A stretch of 64,000 nt of DNA from a virus: IMG/VR virus record IMGVR_UViG_3300037116_000062, positions 1 through 64,000 of that record. One strand, given 5' to 3'. The notes under the pieces were generated by a model. The model was not told the DNA's origin. It was given only the letters and a program-made list of their open reading frames with translations, and searched no databases. Position 1 is the stretch's first letter, and every line of letters begins with the position of its first letter. The position numbers and the translations under genes were made by a program. Shown here one piece after another: positions 1,156-61,727 of the stretch.

Positions 1156-1975
1156 CCGTGGGGTGGGGTGTCGTTTCGCTTTCTGTTCGCTATTGATTGC
1201 TGACGTGTTCGCCATCTGTTCGCCCATGTGACGTGATTGATCCGTATGTGTGATTGGCCCTGGCAGGGCTAAAATGGCAATTCGGCCAATCGGCCAGACA
1301 TCCAAGCCTCTAGAGAGTATAGAAGACGTGATTACCTGTTCGCCTGCTGTTCGCTGTTACCGCAGCACGTGCGTCTGTGTACTAAATAGACAGGAGAATA
1401 GAAAGCAAATGCCTGAGCACTGTGTCAGCGCGGACACACCAAAGAGATAGCGAAAGCTCAGGCCATAGAGCCCGAGCGCGCCTTCGCTTCCTGTTCTATG
1501 TGTCCCGTGGGCCACGCCGCCATTCATTCGCCCCCAATTGTGGGCCGCATGCCCTGTTACAATTCGTCATTTTGTAACATGCACGTGCATCCCGTTGATT
1601 GCACTGCATTTAGACTGCATTTATAAACTCCACTCTGCATGTACCGCATTCGACAGCACTTAGCGCGGTTCGTTCTTTGTTCGCTCTGTGTCTCATATAG
1701 GACAGCGCAAGCCGTTGAGCCATAAGGGGTTAACAGGGGGTCAGTACTTAGCGGTTGAGGCGTGCCGCGGTCACCCCAGCCGGGTCGCGCCACGCCGCCT
1801 AGCTTGGCTTGGCCAACGCTACCTCCTATTTTCCGCCCTATTAGGGCGAGTCGACCGTCCTGCGATCGTCCATATCGCGAGGCACCCCCCTACGCAAAAT
1901 TTGTAATGTATTACGTACAGCGTTCGGGGCGTGGCTATGTTACTAGGGCAGGTGGTTACTACGCTTTTTGTTCGC
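1129..1975. repeat. Cluster of TGTTCGC heptamers in gene-free DNA
   Basis: TGTTCGC is present at 1184-1190, 1206-1212, 1217-1223, 1337-1343, 1348-1354, 1678-1684 and 1969-1975, and inverted (GCGAACA) at 1129-1135. Eight copies in about 850 bp is far above the roughly 0.1 expected by chance. The stretch 1004-2184 has no gene I can support: open frames in it lack ribosome-binding sites and protein-like composition. Several CTGCAT repeats lie at 1595-1640. Confidence 0.5.
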
Positions 1976-2184: not shown

Positions 2185-2520
2185 TTATGGGTTCTGCCCG
2201 TCGTCCCGCATGCCGTTCGCATTGATGTAGCGCGCGTATTTAATCGGGGTGTTGACCAAGGTAAAGCTATTCGGGTAATTATTCTGGTAGATCGGGGGGT
2301 TGATCGAGGCGTAGCCTAGGGGCCAGGGCAGGCGCAATTCGAGAACCGTCGCAATCCTCTCCAGCGCGCTCGCCGCGCGTGAGGATGCGTCCGCCGTCAG
2401 TTGCGCCTCCGTGTTGATGGCTGGGGCCGATTCCAGTTTGAGGATCCGTGAATCCATTGCCTCCAGCACCAGTATGTTCAGATCCAGTATATTGTTGATG
2501 TGTTCTTGACTTCGTAGCAT
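2185..2520 (-). CDS. Small helical protein of unknown function
   Basis: This 111-residue protein is not recognised. Residues 1-65 are predicted helical with heptad-like leucine and isoleucine spacing (NNILDLNILVLEAM, then ALERIATVLEL), and the C-terminal third is proline-, tyrosine- and asparagine-rich. The ATG at 2520 follows GGAGGAAAC. It is the last gene of the leftward operon, immediately before its terminator. Confidence 0.6.
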   Translation of the reverse strand: MLRSQEHINNILDLNILVLEAMDSRILKLESAPAINTEAQLTADASSRAASALERIATVLELRLPWPLGYASINPPIYQNNYPNSFTLVNTPIKYARYINANGMRDDGQNP

Positions 2521-6192: not shown

Positions 6193-6324
6193 CTACATTC
6201 CTGCAGTCGCGCTCATCGCTTTCGGCTTTTCAGTCGTAGCGGTTATTGGTTTAGTCTCCCGTAACGTGGGCAACTCATCCGACACGCAAGCAGTCTCTAT
6301 TCCAAGCAATCGAATCAATTTCAC
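6193..6324 (-). CDS. Possible 43-aa protein
   Basis: A short frame from GTG (6324) to TAG (6193-6195) has ordinary amino-acid composition and codon use resembling the neighbours. Its start overlaps the stop of an upstream short frame as GTGA, the coupling style seen at 3810-3813. The ribosome-binding site is poorly spaced, so this is tentative. Nothing is recognised in it. Confidence 0.3.
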   Translation of the reverse strand: MKLIRLLGIETACVSDELPTLRETKPITATTEKPKAMSATAGM

Positions 6325-6339
6325 CCCCACTCTAGACTT

Positions 6340-6473
6340 CTAATAGAAGCCCACAGTGGAGGTGGCGGGTACGACCCGCGTCTTGCCAGTATAGCTAAAG
6401 CCCTCGACGTGTGTAATTTTAGGGGCGTCACGCCCACCGGGATGGACTCGATAGCCCTCTGGAGTTCAGCCAT
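6340..6473 (-). pseudogene. Short frame needing a -1 shift (remnant or recoded gene)
   Basis: An ATG at 6473 with GCGAGG six bases upstream opens MAELQRAIESIPVGVTPLK. After that the same frame fills with rare codons, whereas the -1 frame continues with codon use typical of this phage (ITHVEGFSYTGKTRVVPATS) to a TAG at 6340. The switch would occur at a run of four A. This could be a lost base in an old gene, a sequencing deletion or recoding; the unshifted frame ends at 6321. Confidence 0.3.
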
Positions 6474-15625: not shown

Positions 15626-16624
15626 ATGGCACGGATTCTCGTTACAGGCGCAGGTGGATTCATCGGACACCACTTGGTGAAGAAGTTGAAAGCCGCCGGG
15701 CATTTTGTCCGCGGCATTGACATCAAATATCCTGAGTACGAGAAGACCGCCGCGGACGAGTTCTGGATTAAGGATTTGCGTTGGGACTACAACGCTTTTG
15801 CTTCGTTCAATGGCGAACCGTTCTGCAACCGAGAGTTCGACGAAGTGTACAGCCTCGCGGCAGATATGGGCGGGATCGGGTACATCACTAGCCATCTCGC
15901 GGACATCGCACGGAACAACATCCTCATCAACGTGAACATGCTGGAAGCCGCGCGCCTCTTCGGAGTAAGCAAGTATCTCTATACATCCTCCGCGTGCGTG
16001 TACGCGCAGTCCAAACAGCACGACGCGAATGTCATCCCCCTCAAAGAGGAAGACGCATACCCCGCCGATCCCGAACCTGGGTACGGTTGGGAGAAACTGT
16101 TCGCTGAAGAAATGTGCAAGTACTACCGCAAAGACTTCGGGATGGACACGAAGATCGTGCGATTCCACAACGTGTACGGCCCCCTCGGAACATATGACGG
16201 CGGGCGTGAGAAATCCCCCGCGGCATTGAGCCGCAAGATCGCCAAGACCGCAGATGGTGGCGTTCTCGAAATTTGGGGTGACGGGAAGCAGACGCGCTCC
16301 TACATGTACATCGACGACTGCGTCAAAGGGCTCATGCACCTAATGGCGTCAGACTACCACGAGCCTTTGAACCTCGGCACGGATGAACTTCTTACCATTG
16401 ACCAGCAGGCGGAAATCACCTGCAAAGTGGCGGGCAAGACTCTTACCTTTCAGCACGACTTGACTAAACCGCAGGGCGTGCGCGGGCGCAACAGTGACAA
16501 CACGCGGCTCCGCGAAGTACTCGGATGGGAGCCAAAGACGACGTTCGCCGAAGGCATGGCAAAGACATATCCTTGGATCGCAGAACAGGTAACGTCCATA
16601 ACTATGGACACTAACCCCAGTTAG
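15626..16624 (+). CDS. GDP-mannose 3,5-epimerase-like enzyme
   Basis: The 332-residue extended SDR has NAD-binding GAGGFIG (8-14) and the family-specific LAADMGGIGYI (77-87). Catalytic residues known from plant GDP-mannose 3,5-epimerase are all present: C124 in SSACVY, Y153 and K157 in YGWEK, and K196 in GGREKSPAA. The GxGVRGRNSDN-type C-terminal signature is also there. The reaction converts GDP-D-mannose to GDP-L-galactose (and GDP-L-gulose). ATG 15626 follows AGGAGGGC. It sits between fucosyltransferase-family genes and other transferases. Confidence 0.88.
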   Translation: MARILVTGAGGFIGHHLVKKLKAAGHFVRGIDIKYPEYEKTAADEFWIKDLRWDYNAFASFNGEPFCNREFDEVYSLAADMGGIGYITSHLADIARNNILINVNMLEAARLFGVSKYLYTSSACVYAQSKQHDANVIPLKEEDAYPADPEPGYGWEKLFAEEMCKYYRKDFGMDTKIVRFHNVYGPLGTYDGGREKSPAALSRKIAKTADGGVLEIWGDGKQTRSYMYIDDCVKGLMHLMASDYHEPLNLGTDELLTIDQQAEITCKVAGKTLTFQHDLTKPQGVRGRNSDNTRLREVLGWEPKTTFAEGMAKTYPWIAEQVTSITMDTNPS

Positions 16625-16755: not shown

Positions 16756-17427
16756 ATGCCAAAGGTCTTAGTTGCCATATCTTCTTGTCAGAGTTATGAA
16801 GCATCTGGTCTGAATGACCCGATGCGCGAGACGTGGTTGACAGCCCTCCCCCAAGGCTGGGACTATAAGTTCTTCCACGGTCGCGGCGCACAGTCGAAGC
16901 ATGACGTCGTAGTACTTGACGTAGATGACGGGCTTGGCGGACTCACTGAGAAGGCGAAGGCAAAAGCGCGCTGGGCGATTGACAACGGATACGATTACAT
17001 CTTCTCCTGCTTCCCCGATACGTACGCGAACGCAGATCGTCTCGCGGCGAGCGGGTTTGAGAAGTTCGATTACCTCGGAAACGTATACAAGTTCCCGAAC
17101 GCGAACTCCAGTTTCTGTCAGGGCGGTCCTGGGTACTTCATGAGTCGCAAGTCTTGTGTGTATCTCGTAAACAATTCGGCCAGTTACCTGAACGACGATA
17201 CCTTCATCGGCGACACACTAAATCGCGCGGACATCCTGCGGTTCGACCACCGCGGCTTCACCACATGCGGCCCAGGTCCACTGAAGACAAATGACTCGAT
17301 CACGAACCACTTGAGCACGCAGCCCGGGGGGTTCACGGGGCACAACATGCGCGAGGAGCACGAGAGATGGCTAAAGTCTTTTACACATATTTGTGGCTCA
17401 GAGAAGACGGAACCCCCTACTATGTAG
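16756..17427 (+). CDS. GT31-like glycosyltransferase (paralogue 2)
   Basis: The 223-residue protein matches the plan of the genes at 12499 and 21928: MPKVLVAISSCQSYEASG, an R-ETWL segment, KAKARWAIDNGYDYIFSC and a GGPGYFMSRKSC acceptor-side motif. The metal motif is degenerate here (CFPDTYANADR where paralogues have DDD), so activity is uncertain. Its last 60 nt overlap the GIY-YIG gene, and the tail after about residue 203 is probably altered by that insertion. Confidence 0.6.
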   Translation: MPKVLVAISSCQSYEASGLNDPMRETWLTALPQGWDYKFFHGRGAQSKHDVVVLDVDDGLGGLTEKAKAKARWAIDNGYDYIFSCFPDTYANADRLAASGFEKFDYLGNVYKFPNANSSFCQGGPGYFMSRKSCVYLVNNSASYLNDDTFIGDTLNRADILRFDHRGFTTCGPGPLKTNDSITNHLSTQPGGFTGHNMREEHERWLKSFTHICGSEKTEPPTM

Positions 17428-17855
17428 GTAAAGGTTCTGGGAATAGGGGATTTACAAGCAAGAGACATAGGTTCAGACGCCCGCCCTGCGCCGAGCGTAT
17501 TGTTGCTCAGGAGTTTGTTTCAGAGAGGGATGCCCTCTTTGCCGAACAGTTGCTAATCGCCGTCTACGGAAGACAAGACCTCGGGACCGGGATATTGAGG
17601 AACCTAACAGATGGTGGAGACAACCCCCCTAGGGGCACCCCGTCCAGTTATGCTAAAGCGTCTCTGTCTCTACAAGGACGCCCCGGGGGTTTTAAGGGAC
17701 GCAGACATACTGAAGAGACGAGGGAAAAGATGCGCGCTGCTGCCGCTGCGATTGGCGCACGGAGGGGTCGCAATCGCGGTTTCCTTGTCTCCGAAGAGAC
17801 AAGAAAGAAACTGAGTGACCGAGCATGGCAACAACATCACCTGTTCGTATACTAG
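17367..17855 (+). CDS. GIY-YIG homing-type endonuclease 1
   Basis: The 162-residue protein starts with a GIY-YIG-like core, FYTYLWLREDGTPYYVGKG (5-23), with the conserved R and E further on (AERIVAQEF; LLIAVYG). The C-terminal GRRHTEETREKMR and LVSEETRKKLSD repeats are NUMOD3-like DNA-binding helices. It overlaps the upstream transferase by 61 nt and the downstream one by 31 nt, so it is wedged between them without its own spacer. It is a close relative of the gene at 20590. Confidence 0.85.
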   Translation: MAKVFYTYLWLREDGTPYYVGKGSGNRGFTSKRHRFRRPPCAERIVAQEFVSERDALFAEQLLIAVYGRQDLGTGILRNLTDGGDNPPRGTPSSYAKASLSLQGRPGGFKGRRHTEETREKMRAAAAAIGARRGRNRGFLVSEETRKKLSDRAWQQHHLFVY

Positions 17856-26979: not shown

Positions 26980-27495
26980 GTGTACAAGTCCGTCTTTACT
27001 AAGATCATCGACGGCTTGTATTTGGGTGACAAGGAAGGCTTACCTGAAGCAGAGCGGCGGGGATATTCAGTTCTCGCCGCCTGCAAAGATGGCTCACCCG
27101 ATTGTCACCGCGCGGTCCTCGGCTACACAGAACTGGGCGCGCCCAAGGGCAAGAACTATTACTTCGTACAGCGTGGCGACCACATGGCGCTGAACCTTAT
27201 TGACGCGGAGACTGCAGACTTCATCCCCGATGAAGCGATTGACGCAGGATTGGACTTTCTTAAACAAGAAAGAGATGCAGGGAAGAAAGTTTTCGTCCAC
27301 TGCATCGCGGGCCACTCCCGCTCAGTAGGTATAATGATGCTTTTTCTCAGAGCCATTGGGGAACTGCCTGAAGGATTTCATAGGGCGTTGCACAAGTTCA
27401 CCGTTCTCTATCCAGAAGCGGATATGGGAAAAGGAATGTACCAACACGTCCGCCGTCGTTGGGCGGATATGAAAGACAAGTTTCTGTCGGCTTAA
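26980..27495 (+). CDS. Dual-specificity/tyrosine phosphatase
   Basis: The 171-residue protein has the phosphatase P-loop VHCIAGHSRS (106-115; C108 and R114) and the N-terminal IIDGLYLGDKE segment typical of DSP-like enzymes. It would remove phosphate from proteins, or possibly from RNA or sugar phosphates. The start is GTG at 26980, after GGAGGCAACC. Placement among particle-type genes is unusual for a regulatory enzyme. Confidence 0.82.
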   Translation: MYKSVFTKIIDGLYLGDKEGLPEAERRGYSVLAACKDGSPDCHRAVLGYTELGAPKGKNYYFVQRGDHMALNLIDAETADFIPDEAIDAGLDFLKQERDAGKKVFVHCIAGHSRSVGIMMLFLRAIGELPEGFHRALHKFTVLYPEADMGKGMYQHVRRRWADMKDKFLSA

Positions 27496-27553
27496 TTACC
27501 CGATGGAGGGCGAGGCTAGTCCCTCGCCCAACTCTAGACTAGGAGAGATTATG
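27493..27553 (+). promoter_or_regulatory. Candidate RBS-sequestering pseudoknot, HNH gene at 27551
   Basis: After TAATTACCCGA (27493-27503) an 8-bp stem GGGCGAGG/CCTCGCCC (27508-27515, 27522-27529) exposes loop CTAGTC. That loop is complementary to GACTAG (27537-27542), which overlaps the Shine-Dalgarno AGGAGAG. The same layout with different bases occurs at 36442-36511, so base pairing appears conserved. Confidence 0.6.
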
Positions 27554-28015
27554 CCTTACAAAACCAAAGAAGAAAAAGCTGCGTATGACCATGCCCGAGT
27601 AGCACAAAATCGAGAAGAAAAATCTGCTTATGATAAAAACTATCGTAGCACTCACCGCACGGAAAAAGACGCGTACAGTCGCAAACATCATCTTCAGAAG
27701 AACTTCAATCTGTCTTTTCAAAAATTTTTTGAGATGCTTACTGCACAGGATAATAAATGTGCCCTTTGTAGTGACTTATTCGAAGTAACTCCCGCTATCG
27801 ACCACGACCATTCGTGTTGCTCAGGAGTTAAGAGTTGCGGTAAATGTGTCAGGGGATTGCTCTGTCACCGTTGCAATACCGCTCTTGGAAGTTTCAGAGA
27901 TTCTCCAGAACTTCTTCGCAAAGCAGCAGATTACATAGAAAGAAAACGAAACGAGAATTTCAATGTCCCCATTTCGCTCGAAAGCACAAGCGGGCTACCT
28001 ACACAGTCATCCTGA
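27551..28015 (+). CDS. HNH endonuclease, endonuclease VII-like (1)
   Basis: The 154-residue protein has a helical Lys/Arg-rich N-terminus and the recombination-endonuclease-VII core: CALC, AIDHDHSCCSG, CGKCVRGLLCHRCNTALGSFRDSPELLRKAADYI. This gives a beta-beta-alpha metal nuclease with paired zinc cysteines, common in free-standing phage homing endonucleases. The ATG at 27551 follows AGGAGAG. Its last 53 nt overlap the next gene, so it was inserted tightly. Confidence 0.87.
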   Translation: MPYKTKEEKAAYDHARVAQNREEKSAYDKNYRSTHRTEKDAYSRKHHLQKNFNLSFQKFFEMLTAQDNKCALCSDLFEVTPAIDHDHSCCSGVKSCGKCVRGLLCHRCNTALGSFRDSPELLRKAADYIERKRNENFNVPISLESTSGLPTQSS

Positions 28016-36418: not shown

Positions 36419-36441
36419 GCACCAATTCGACATCTTCGGAC

Positions 36442-36511
36442 TAATTACCCGAAGCCAGAGCGACCAGCACCTAGAATGCTGGTCGCTCGCTCTTTTCTAG
36501 GAGAGAATATG
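36442..36511 (+). promoter_or_regulatory. Terminator/pseudoknot element before HNH gene at 36509
   Basis: TAATTACCCGA (36442-36452) precedes a perfect 12-bp stem (36458-36469 with 36477-36488). Its 7-nt loop CCTAGAA is fully complementary to TTCTAGG (36495-36501), which overlaps the Shine-Dalgarno AGGAGAG. The stem is also followed by CTCTTTTCT, so it can act as a terminator of the capsid/decoration transcript. Confidence 0.65.
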
Positions 36512-36928
36512 CCCCGAAACACTGAAGCAGGAAGGCTCGCGTACAACAAATACATGCGAGAATATCGAAAGCGCCCCGAACAAGCCGCTAAAGAAACCGC
36601 ACGAAAAGCGGCTTGGATAGCGGCAAACCCAGAGAACGCGGAGAAACACCGTTTGAGCAGGTTTCGCGCCGCGAGAAGGGCCAGATGGGGTAACCCAGAA
36701 GAGTACGCCGCACGTCTCGCTAAACAGAATGGTTTGTGTGCGCTCTGTGGCGAACCTTTTGACGACACTAAGTTAGGCAGCCCTGTTCAAGATCACGACC
36801 ACGATACTGAAGAACTAAGAGAATTTTTGCACTGCCGTTGTAACCTTGCGATAGCAAATCTGCTGGATAGCCCTAGCGGATGTCGCAAAGCAGCGGAGTA
36901 TTTAGAGAAGCACGGGAGGAGAGGATGA
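36509..36928 (+). CDS. HNH endonuclease, endonuclease VII-like (2)
   Basis: The 139-residue protein has an Arg/Lys-rich helical N-terminus (AYNKYMREYRKRPEQAAKE) and the core CALCGEPFDD, QDHDHDTEELREFLHCRCNLAIANLLDSPSGCRKAAEYL. The ATG at 36509 follows AGGAGAGAAT. Its stop overlaps the start of a tiny membrane protein, again a seamless insertion. Confidence 0.85.
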   Translation: MPRNTEAGRLAYNKYMREYRKRPEQAAKETARKAAWIAANPENAEKHRLSRFRAARRARWGNPEEYAARLAKQNGLCALCGEPFDDTKLGSPVQDHDHDTEELREFLHCRCNLAIANLLDSPSGCRKAAEYLEKHGRRG

Positions 36929-48111: not shown

Positions 48112-48140
48112 TTGACAATCTTCTCCTATTGCTGTAAACT
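48112..48140 (+). promoter_or_regulatory. Dedicated promoter of the HNH gene at 48159
   Basis: TTGACA (48112-48117), 17 nt and TAAACT (48135-48140) predict a start near 48147. The spacer contains the left arm of a 13-bp inverted repeat whose right arm covers the ribosome-binding site. Confidence 0.72.
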
Positions 48141-48158
48141 TAAGTAATAGGAGAAGAT
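48118..48158 (+). promoter_or_regulatory. RBS-sequestering hairpin overlapping the promoter
   Basis: ATCTTCTCCTATT (48118-48130) and AATAGGAGAAGAT (48146-48158) are perfectly complementary over 13 bp with a 15-nt loop, directly abutting the ATG at 48159. A transcript reading through from upstream would fold and hide AGGAG; a transcript starting at about 48147 lacks the left arm and would be translated. Confidence 0.75.
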
Positions 48159-48752
48159 ATGGAGAACAATCATCCACGATTCCGCCTTCAAGGGCGGGAG
48201 CAAGAGGTTATCGCCGCCTATCAAGGCGGCAGTTCAACTCCAACGATAGGGAAACTCTTTGGGGTAAGCCACGCTTCCATTCTGCAGGTGTTGAGGAAAT
48301 TCAACGTCCCTCGACGCACGCGAAGTGAAGCCAACATACAAACGCATTGCAAGAGGGGACACCCAATGGTGGAGGGCAACCTCTACTACATGAAGGGCGG
48401 GGTACGGAGTTGTTTGACTTGTCGCAAGGCAAATGGCAGACGTAGTCGATTTGGACTACGGCCTGAGGATATCGAAAGACGACTTCAGCAGCAGGAAGGG
48501 AAATGTGCTGTTTGTAGAAAGACTTTGAAAATCCCCCAAGCAGACCACGATCATTCCTGTTGTCCTGCGAAAACTAAAACTTGTGGAAAGTGTGTGCGAG
48601 ATTTGTTGTGCAGGAACTGCAACCTCGCTGTCGGGAACGTGAAGGACGATATCTCAATAGCAGAATCCCTCGTCGCTTACCTGAAGAAATGGAAAACCCC
48701 CAATGTCCACCCTAGCAGAACGACTGAAAACGCAATCGCTGCCGGGGTTTGA
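48159..48752 (+). CDS. HTH-HNH endonuclease, endonuclease VII-like (3)
   Basis: The 197-residue protein starts with a helix-turn-helix (about 16-50: EVIAAYQGGSSTPTIGKLFG, then VSHASILQVLRKF), a CKRG...CLTCRK linker and an endonuclease VII core CAVC, QADHDHSCCPAKTKTCGKCV, LLCRNCNLAVG. It has its own promoter and translation switch. Its last 50 nt overlap the next gene. Confidence 0.88.
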   Translation: MENNHPRFRLQGREQEVIAAYQGGSSTPTIGKLFGVSHASILQVLRKFNVPRRTRSEANIQTHCKRGHPMVEGNLYYMKGGVRSCLTCRKANGRRSRFGLRPEDIERRLQQQEGKCAVCRKTLKIPQADHDHSCCPAKTKTCGKCVRDLLCRNCNLAVGNVKDDISIAESLVAYLKKWKTPNVHPSRTTENAIAAGV

Positions 48753-49708: not shown

Positions 49709-49716
49709 GAGGAGTG

Positions 49717-50139
49717 ATGGGTAGAGATAAAGAACATTGGAACGCTTACATGCGGGAGTTTCGCAAGACCCATCCCAGGACCGCGGAGAAACGCGCGGCT
49801 CAAAATGCACGTAATAGCCGCAACCAACAGAATGAAAAGACAACCCCCGAAGGGCGGCTCAGGGTGAAGAACCGCTACTTTCTTCGGGAGCACGGGATTA
49901 CCCTAGAGCAGAGAAATGCCATCATTGTAGAACAGGACAATCTCTGCTTAATTTGTGGGCGTCTTTTAGGAGACGACAACATGGGGGCGCTCTCTCCTGT
50001 TGTCGACCACAGCCATCTCACAGGCAAACGTCGAGGCATACTACATCGAGTTTGCAATTCCGCCATAGGGTTGCTGGAAGATAGCCCTGATTTGCTCAGG
50101 CGTGCTGCTGACTACTTGGAGAAATCACAGTGTCCATAA
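49717..50139 (+). CDS. HNH endonuclease, endonuclease VII-like (4)
   Basis: The 140-residue protein has the usual Lys/Arg helical N-terminus and the core CLICGRLLGDDN, VVDHSHLTGKRRGILHRVCN, SAIGLLEDSPDLLRRAADYL. ATG 49717 follows GGAGGAGTG. Its C-terminal codons supply the GGAG and overlap the GTG start of the next gene. Confidence 0.86.
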   Translation: MGRDKEHWNAYMREFRKTHPRTAEKRAAQNARNSRNQQNEKTTPEGRLRVKNRYFLREHGITLEQRNAIIVEQDNLCLICGRLLGDDNMGALSPVVDHSHLTGKRRGILHRVCNSAIGLLEDSPDLLRRAADYLEKSQCP

Positions 50140-61199: not shown

Positions 61200-61727
61200 G
61201 TGTTCTACGCGTACTTGTGGCTCAGATACGACGGCACCCCTTACTACGTCGGCAAGAGCCACGATGGGAAGAACAGTCGTGCGTTTAAGAGCGTTGGGCA
61301 TCACGTTCACAGACCGTCAGAAGAGTCTAGGATAATCGTTCAACACTACGACTCCGAAGACGAAGCGTTCGCCGCGGAGAAGTTCTTGATCGCGTTTTAC
61401 GGCAGGGCGGACTTAGGAGAAGGTTGCCTGAGAAACCTCACGGACGGCGGGGAGGGTACGACAGGCGCAATCCGCACGGAGCAGTGGAAACAGAACATCT
61501 CCAAGGGGTTGACGGGCAAGAAGAGAACTGGGCCTCAATACCAACGTACTGAGGAGCATCGTCGGCAACTTCGGGAGAGAATGAAATCGGGAGATGCAGC
61601 TAAGGCAGGACGCATAGGGGGTAGACGTATGGTAGAGAATCTAAAAGGTAGGTTTACCTTAGAGCAACGGCAAGCATGGTCTAAAAAAGTGCATGCAGCC
61701 CGTTGGGGGAAGGTGTCAAATTCTTAA
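61200..61727 (+). CDS. GIY-YIG homing-type endonuclease 3
   Basis: The 175-residue protein has the core FYAYLWLRYDGTPYYVGKS (2-20), ESRIIVQHY and KFLIAFYGRADLGEGCLRNL, then helical repeats (EQWKQNISKGLTGKK; EEHRRQLRERMKSG). The start is GTG 61200, after AGGAGGAAGA; TCCTG upstream can pair with CAGGA over this site. Its last 35 nt overlap the following hydrolase gene. Confidence 0.85.
   Translation: MFYAYLWLRYDGTPYYVGKSHDGKNSRAFKSVGHHVHRPSEESRIIVQHYDSEDEAFAAEKFLIAFYGRADLGEGCLRNLTDGGEGTTGAIRTEQWKQNISKGLTGKKRTGPQYQRTEEHRRQLRERMKSGDAAKAGRIGGRRMVENLKGRFTLEQRQAWSKKVHAARWGKVSNS

Follow-up and report, generated by a model that had tools for sequence, protein, structure and literature searches.

The window, a stretch of 64,000 nucleotides that forms part of a 70-kb virus record, carries two HNH homing nuclease genes, each preceded by a structured leader (Table 1). 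In both leaders a hairpin, P1, presents a loop complementary to a strand at the Shine-Dalgarno (SD) site of the nuclease gene. The preliminary description had read these hairpins and their complements directly from the letters, with the longer one pairing across the ribosome-binding site of its gene, and the sequence confirms them at both loci. Folded without the pseudoknot, the leader before 36509 has a z-score of -5.5 against shuffled sequences and the leader before 27551 a z-score of -3.2, with 0 of 200 shuffles folding as well in either case.

Table 1. Positions of the two leaders and their nuclease genes in the window
Feature	Position	Strand	Description	Basis
P0 hairpin (27551 leader)	27483-27507	+	TCTGTCGG-[CTTAATTAC]-CCGATGGA	sequence, fold
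Stop codon of upstream gene	27493-27495		inside P0 loop of 27551 leader	
P1 hairpin (27551 leader)	27508-27529	+	8 bp, loop CTAGTC 27516-27521	sequence, fold
P2 hairpin (27551 leader)	27532-27545	+	CTCT/GGAG around SD-side strand	fold
SD-side strand GACTAG	27537-27542	+	complement of P1 loop	
HNH homing nuclease gene	27551-28015	+	start ATG; Endonuclease_7 PF02945, E 2.4e-19	
P0 hairpin (36509 leader)	36434-36454	+	CTTCGG-[ACTAATTAC]-CCGAAG, 6 bp, with TAATTACCC motif	fold; covariation in 27 relatives
P1 hairpin (36509 leader)	36458-36488	+	12 bp, loop CCTAGAA 36470-36476	sequence, fold
P2 hairpin (36509 leader)	36490-36505	+	around SD; competes with loop:SD pairing	fold; family-wide P2 test
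SD-side strand TTCTAGG	36495-36501	+	full complement of P1 loop; overlaps SD AGGAG 36499-36503	
HNH homing nuclease gene	36509-36928	+	start ATG; Endonuclease_7 PF02945, E 1.7e-11	

Both leaders also contain TAATTACCCGA, starting at 36442 and at 27493, which had been taken as a shared beginning of the two elements. The shared letters are present in both, but they are not a sequence tag: TAATTACCCGA forms the loop together with the 3' arm of a further hairpin, P0, which covaries too, lies upstream of P1 and has a stem of 6-8 bp, TAATTACCC being its loop and the start of the 3' arm. Relatives mostly retain the P0 loop but vary on both sides of the stem (for example AGATGG/CCATCT in L039 and CTCTGG/CCAGAG in L166). 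Loops other than TAATTAC recur in different phages (CTTGATCA, YTTAGCGG and TCGACGGA), with variation of the P0 loop noted in L169, L276, L492, L523, L526, L550, L575 and L583. A third exact copy of TAATTACCCGA in the window (2271-2281, minus strand) is embedded in other sequence, with neither hairpin nor gene start, and as this is its only occurrence beyond the two leaders we rejected TAATTACCC as a general phage promoter.

Members of the leader family

The third member (L020) came out of a pattern scan of IMG/VR, two others (L025 and L039) were obtained from the flanks of nuclease homologues, and later members were collected by wider pattern scans and by a descriptor combining the hairpin, the loop:SD pairing and a start codon. 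The descriptor made 41 matches in 6.8 Mb compared with 7 on the reversed sequence, which serves as a chance-only control, and about two dozen of the 41 stand in a family context. Further copies in the same contigs were found with a covariance model, R1, that consists of P0 and P1 only and has no pseudoknot term. Among the matches listed there are at least 43 leader instances on about 26 viral contigs, and some phages hold several: four each on the L169 and L583 contigs, and at least three each on those of L039, L166 and L276. Related member sequences are not independent events, and because members came mostly from patterns based on TAATTACCC, the diversity of P0 among the matches listed is underestimated. 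The alignment of P0 is model-based, since a MAFFT alignment of this hairpin was partly out of register. In most members P0 and P1 stand side by side; an outer stem around both was recognised by eye in L158 (GTGTAGG/CCTACAC), L220, L223, L245, L261 and L306.

BLASTN of two members against cultured phages returned no relative. A pattern scan of genome_contigs gave chance matches only, with no locus yielding a member in the descriptor scan, and a model search of 781 bacterial genomes (385 of one class and 396 of a phylum) found no leader. The single weak match among the 385 genomes, L618, falls at the junction of two unrelated bacterial genes, lacks the pairing and was attributed to chance. Two weak model matches without loop:SD pairing (L166 12346 and L491 627) were rejected, and L102, where a hairpin with loop complementarity is followed by a 75-aa ORF and no nuclease, was left out.

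The genes that follow the leader are homing-type nucleases. Endonuclease_7 is found in most of them, in agreement with the suggestion of the preliminary description that the element travels with endonuclease VII-like genes, but the association proves to be broader, as leaders also precede genes with HNH/HNH_5 (L169 6476), HNH_3 with AP2 (L266) and GIY-YIG/NUMOD3 (L169 3605, L158, L245, L607 and L615). Other leader genes match PHROG endonuclease families only, and the genes of L609, L611, L220 and L617 have no Pfam match and were assigned to the nuclease class by eye. Leaders occur at 2 of 94 endonuclease VII-type loci, most such genes having none. Within the window, homing-type genes at 17367-17855, 61200-61727 and 49714-50139 (two GIY-YIG-like, one HNH) have no leader; a relative of the window's GIY-YIG genes carries one in L169. 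In L337 the HNH-like gene after the leader (1713-1796, minus strand) is split over two frames and is either broken or misassembled.

Covariation of P1 and of the loop:SD pairing

Complementarity between the P1 loop and the SD strand is kept in 43 of 43 instances while the sequence varies. Among 27 members aligned by the model, which have 22 different loops, the two strands pair over 6-7 nt in every case, and the entire P1 loop is paired in all except L255 (6 of 8 nt). The P1 pairs of these model-aligned relatives are likewise kept throughout (216/216), and the overlap of the loop-complementary strand with the SD is consistent across members. When partners are swapped between members, just 3.5% of the 690 combinations reach 6 bp or more.

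An ungapped alignment of 22 members gives the same picture for each helix position, with all eight P1 pairs and all seven loop:SD pairs varying on both sides. Across these two helices 330 of 330 cells are paired, compared with 66% in shuffles, the covariation is 0.914 compared with 0.217, and sliding the partner strand along the alignment destroys the signal. The rows of this alignment, however, were assembled in register around the complement, and tests on unselected samples therefore weigh more. When sites were selected by GGNNTAATTACCC, AGGAG and a start codon alone, those before nuclease-type genes had the hairpin and the pairing and those before other genes did not; one of these pairings (L291) needs a G-U pair, and two other matches have 4-bp stems and 5-nt complementarity only. 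Selection by P1 with a CCTA loop gave matches of which those with 7-nt complementarity were the ones then followed by a start codon. Nearly all of these 7-nt matches precede a nuclease-type gene; for L575 the sequence read shows just a 14-aa frame. Finally, the loop:SD pairing is present in 9 of 9 members first found by the pseudoknot-free model (L491-L497, L309 and L337), the one exception to that model's finds being L489, a P0 and P1 remnant with no nuclease gene after it.

Chance or the selection of examples, for which one could cite that short complementarities are common near purine-rich SD sequences and that the first members were found by a descriptor demanding the pairing, is already refuted by the samples picked without the pairing, which give the same result, and by the low reversed-sequence count and the swap test. 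Thus the view that stem and loop bases differ between the elements while pairing is kept, first formed on the two window leaders, holds across the family through compensatory changes, and the covariation test then proposed for related leaders, which now include the flanks of nuclease homologues, finds both the hairpin and strong covariation. Judged by sequence comparison, this is a single homologous RNA family in which P0, P1 and the loop:SD helix are kept by compensatory change.

Competing structures and proposed function

In minimum-energy folds the SD strand sits in a small hairpin of its own, P2. Across the 43 members P2 has a mean of 4.4 bp, compared with 3.2 for swapped partners, and the sum for own partners is 186 where the maximum in 5000 permutations is 158. 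P2 is 88.6% paired in the 22-member alignment (66% in shuffles), which is weaker than P1 or loop:SD, and two of five covariation measures do not exceed shuffles. Energies are about -4 to -10 kcal/mol for the loop:SD duplex, excluding the pseudoknot loop penalty, and about 0 to -9 kcal/mol for local SD hairpins. About half of the members have only 0-3 nt between P1 and P2, and in many members the P2 loop is exactly the 6-7-nt complement of the P1 loop. Because they draw on the same strand and the linkers are short, P2 and the pseudoknot are unlikely to be fully formed at once. The preliminary description likened the architecture to small H-type pseudoknot switches. This stands in so far as all members have the loop:SD pairing; the strand that pairs with the P1 loop, however, doubles as the loop of P2, which covaries too, and there may be more to the structure than a plain H-type pseudoknot.

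We think it probable that homing endonuclease genes of phages carry this leader as a mobile RNA that represses their translation in cis. On a long transcript that also covers the neighbouring genes, P1 would be the first to fold and its loop would capture the first two or three bases of the SD AGGAG. Through this pairing, through P2, which would hide the remaining SD, or through both, ribosomes would be unable to start the nuclease gene. P0 might, with less certainty, shield P1 from terminating ribosomes and the unfolding they cause, or it might bind a factor. The outcome would be a nuclease that is kept low, or that is on only under some condition, and a nuclease gene restrained in this way could reside among late structural genes without burdening the phage much. 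Since loop:SD pairing covers only part of AGGAG, translation might be reduced rather than blocked.

Another way to view the leader is as a regulated switch, in which the RNA alternates between the pseudoknot and P2 and the choice is made, probably via P0, by a ligand, a phage or host protein, temperature or ribosome traffic. We regard this as a tentative possibility. Both competing pairings covary, and the loop sequence of P0 is conserved while its stem varies. Mere masking of the SD would not call for a conserved loop (TAATTAC with a few alternatives that recur), which suggests that there is more going on. However, many members have a short, AU-rich P2, its covariation is weaker and in some members it is reduced to 2 bp; no ligand candidate emerged, the genes have no common metabolic pathway, and part of the SD would be hidden in both states. 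Rather doubtful is the more elaborate proposal of a modular, mobile bistable switch recombined among unrelated nuclease families, whose P0 loop would sense a shared host or phage factor and shift the SD between pseudoknot and P2, so permitting nuclease translation at a single point in the infection.

Two hairpins with complementary loops occur in RNA I/RNA II of plasmid ColE1, and P1 and P2 could in principle form together in the same manner, as intramolecular kissing loops with 6-7 nt fully paired. The exact match between the two loops in many members favours such an arrangement, but we consider it unlikely on geometric grounds, the 0-3 nt linkers of about half of the members being probably too short to span the far ends of two stems stacked on a 7-bp kissing helix. 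Guanidine-II kissing hairpins (PMC9300104) are also two hairpins with complementary loops. Here, by contrast, there is one leader, the linkers are mostly very short and the SD lies in one of the loops, so that simultaneous formation is doubtful, and alternation of the pseudoknot and P2 appears more likely than full kissing loops.

It is very unlikely that P1 is instead an intrinsic terminator, or a stabiliser of the mRNA 3' end of the upstream gene, with loop:SD pairing as a secondary feature. A GC-rich stem does stand directly after a stop codon, and the hairpin at 36458-36488 scored as terminator-like, with a TTTT tail. However, the element at 27508 is not terminator-like, the T content after P1 (1-5 of 8) is not conserved, with a T-rich tail in only some members, and the covariation of loop and SD strand would be left unexplained. 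The combination of GC-rich hairpin and U-tract that defines the intrinsic terminator class is not shared across members.

Mobility and relation to known systems

Most leaders start no more than about 15 nt from the stop codon upstream. Six different intergenic sites in syntenic phages hold both leader and nuclease, each site following a homologue of a window gene (26980, 28447, 31155, 35876, 25777 and 38354), and four of the six are empty in the window. Some nuclease stop codons abut or overlap the next start codon. From this joint presence and absence at different intergenic sites we conclude that leader and gene act as a single unit of insertion, and the original proposal that the element is mobile with homing genes agrees with their being gained and lost together in syntenic relatives.

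P0 and P1 in L489 (507-569; G014 16406-16468) lie directly after the end of another gene, with no SD strand or nuclease, and are probably a remnant after the loss of a homing gene. In L616 (minus strand) the nuclease ORF after CTATCGGAGGAAACATG runs on in frame into sequence whose end resembles that of the gene preceding the first leader of L169 (..FDAVTNTFKKL); a homing gene and a phage gene may have fused here.

The joint coming and going of leader and gene, the inverted repeats at the 5' edge and the gene-less remnant in L489 would also fit a DNA-level mobility element, with the repeats as insertion or recognition ends and no RNA regulator. This is highly improbable, however, as the structure ends at the SD and start codon with near-fixed spacing, the loop pairs with the SD, which is needless for a DNA site, and no matching element was seen at the 3' end.

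The preferred reading, a cis-acting repressor RNA that moves with the nuclease gene, has parallels in the T4 family, where the ribosome-binding sites of I-TevI, I-TevII, I-TevIII, segB and mobE (the last in Aeh1) are hidden in RNA structure, from which late promoters within or near it release them (PMC2988022, PMC3014915). Common to these cases and the leader would be an RNA structure acting in cis that, on a long phage transcript, hides the SD belonging to a homing nuclease gene. The T4-family hairpins, however, belong to individual genes, whereas the leader is one conserved family with a loop:SD pseudoknot and P0 that precedes several nuclease folds. Furthermore, a late promoter lies inside the T4-family hairpin, whereas no sigma-70-like promoter was found inside the two window leaders, phage-specific promoters being outside the reach of the scan. 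On present tests, the leader would appear to work like the T4 cases without being a member of them. Elsewhere in the window, the SD of the HNH gene at 48159 is part of a plain 11-bp hairpin (48112-48158, CTTCTCCTATT/AATAGGAGAAG), and a sigma-70-like TTGACA-17-TAAACT runs into the hairpin loop, the same logic as in T4 I-TevI and mobE.

A pseudoknot in a phage mRNA leader that controls translation, as the present one would, is also found in gene 32 of T4-type phages, where it lies well upstream of the ribosome-binding site as a nucleation site for gp32 autoregulation (PMC3014915). There the pseudoknot is apart from the ribosome-binding site, whereas here the SD lies within it and very different proteins follow. 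With preQ1-I and other small SD-sequestering pseudoknot riboswitches the leader has in common a hairpin loop that pairs with a downstream, SD-containing strand; unlike in those, its loop and SD strand vary in sequence and the genes are not metabolic. Rfam 15 gave no family for the leader at or above the gathering threshold, and permissive scans of the two window leaders (E up to 10) matched none, so that the absence of a preQ1-I match, already remarked from the letters, extends to both kinds of scan. At 6237-6412 on the minus strand of the window there is an Rfam match to permuted tmRNA (49.2 bits, threshold 47), where ARAGORN finds no tmRNA. The full-text literature, searched with subscription papers mostly outside its reach, contained the hairpins and the gene 32 pseudoknot and no such leader family.

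In T4-like phages, individual homing nuclease genes were already known to have hidden ribosome-binding sites. A conserved RNA associated with unrelated nuclease folds would mean that the regulator is itself a mobile module, and that restrained expression is a general condition for homing genes in phage operons. The family provides a covariance model and a pairing rule, by which the loop sequence predicts the SD strand, as well as a system for studying how competing helices switch an RNA and a marker by which homing gene insertions can be located in metagenomic phages.
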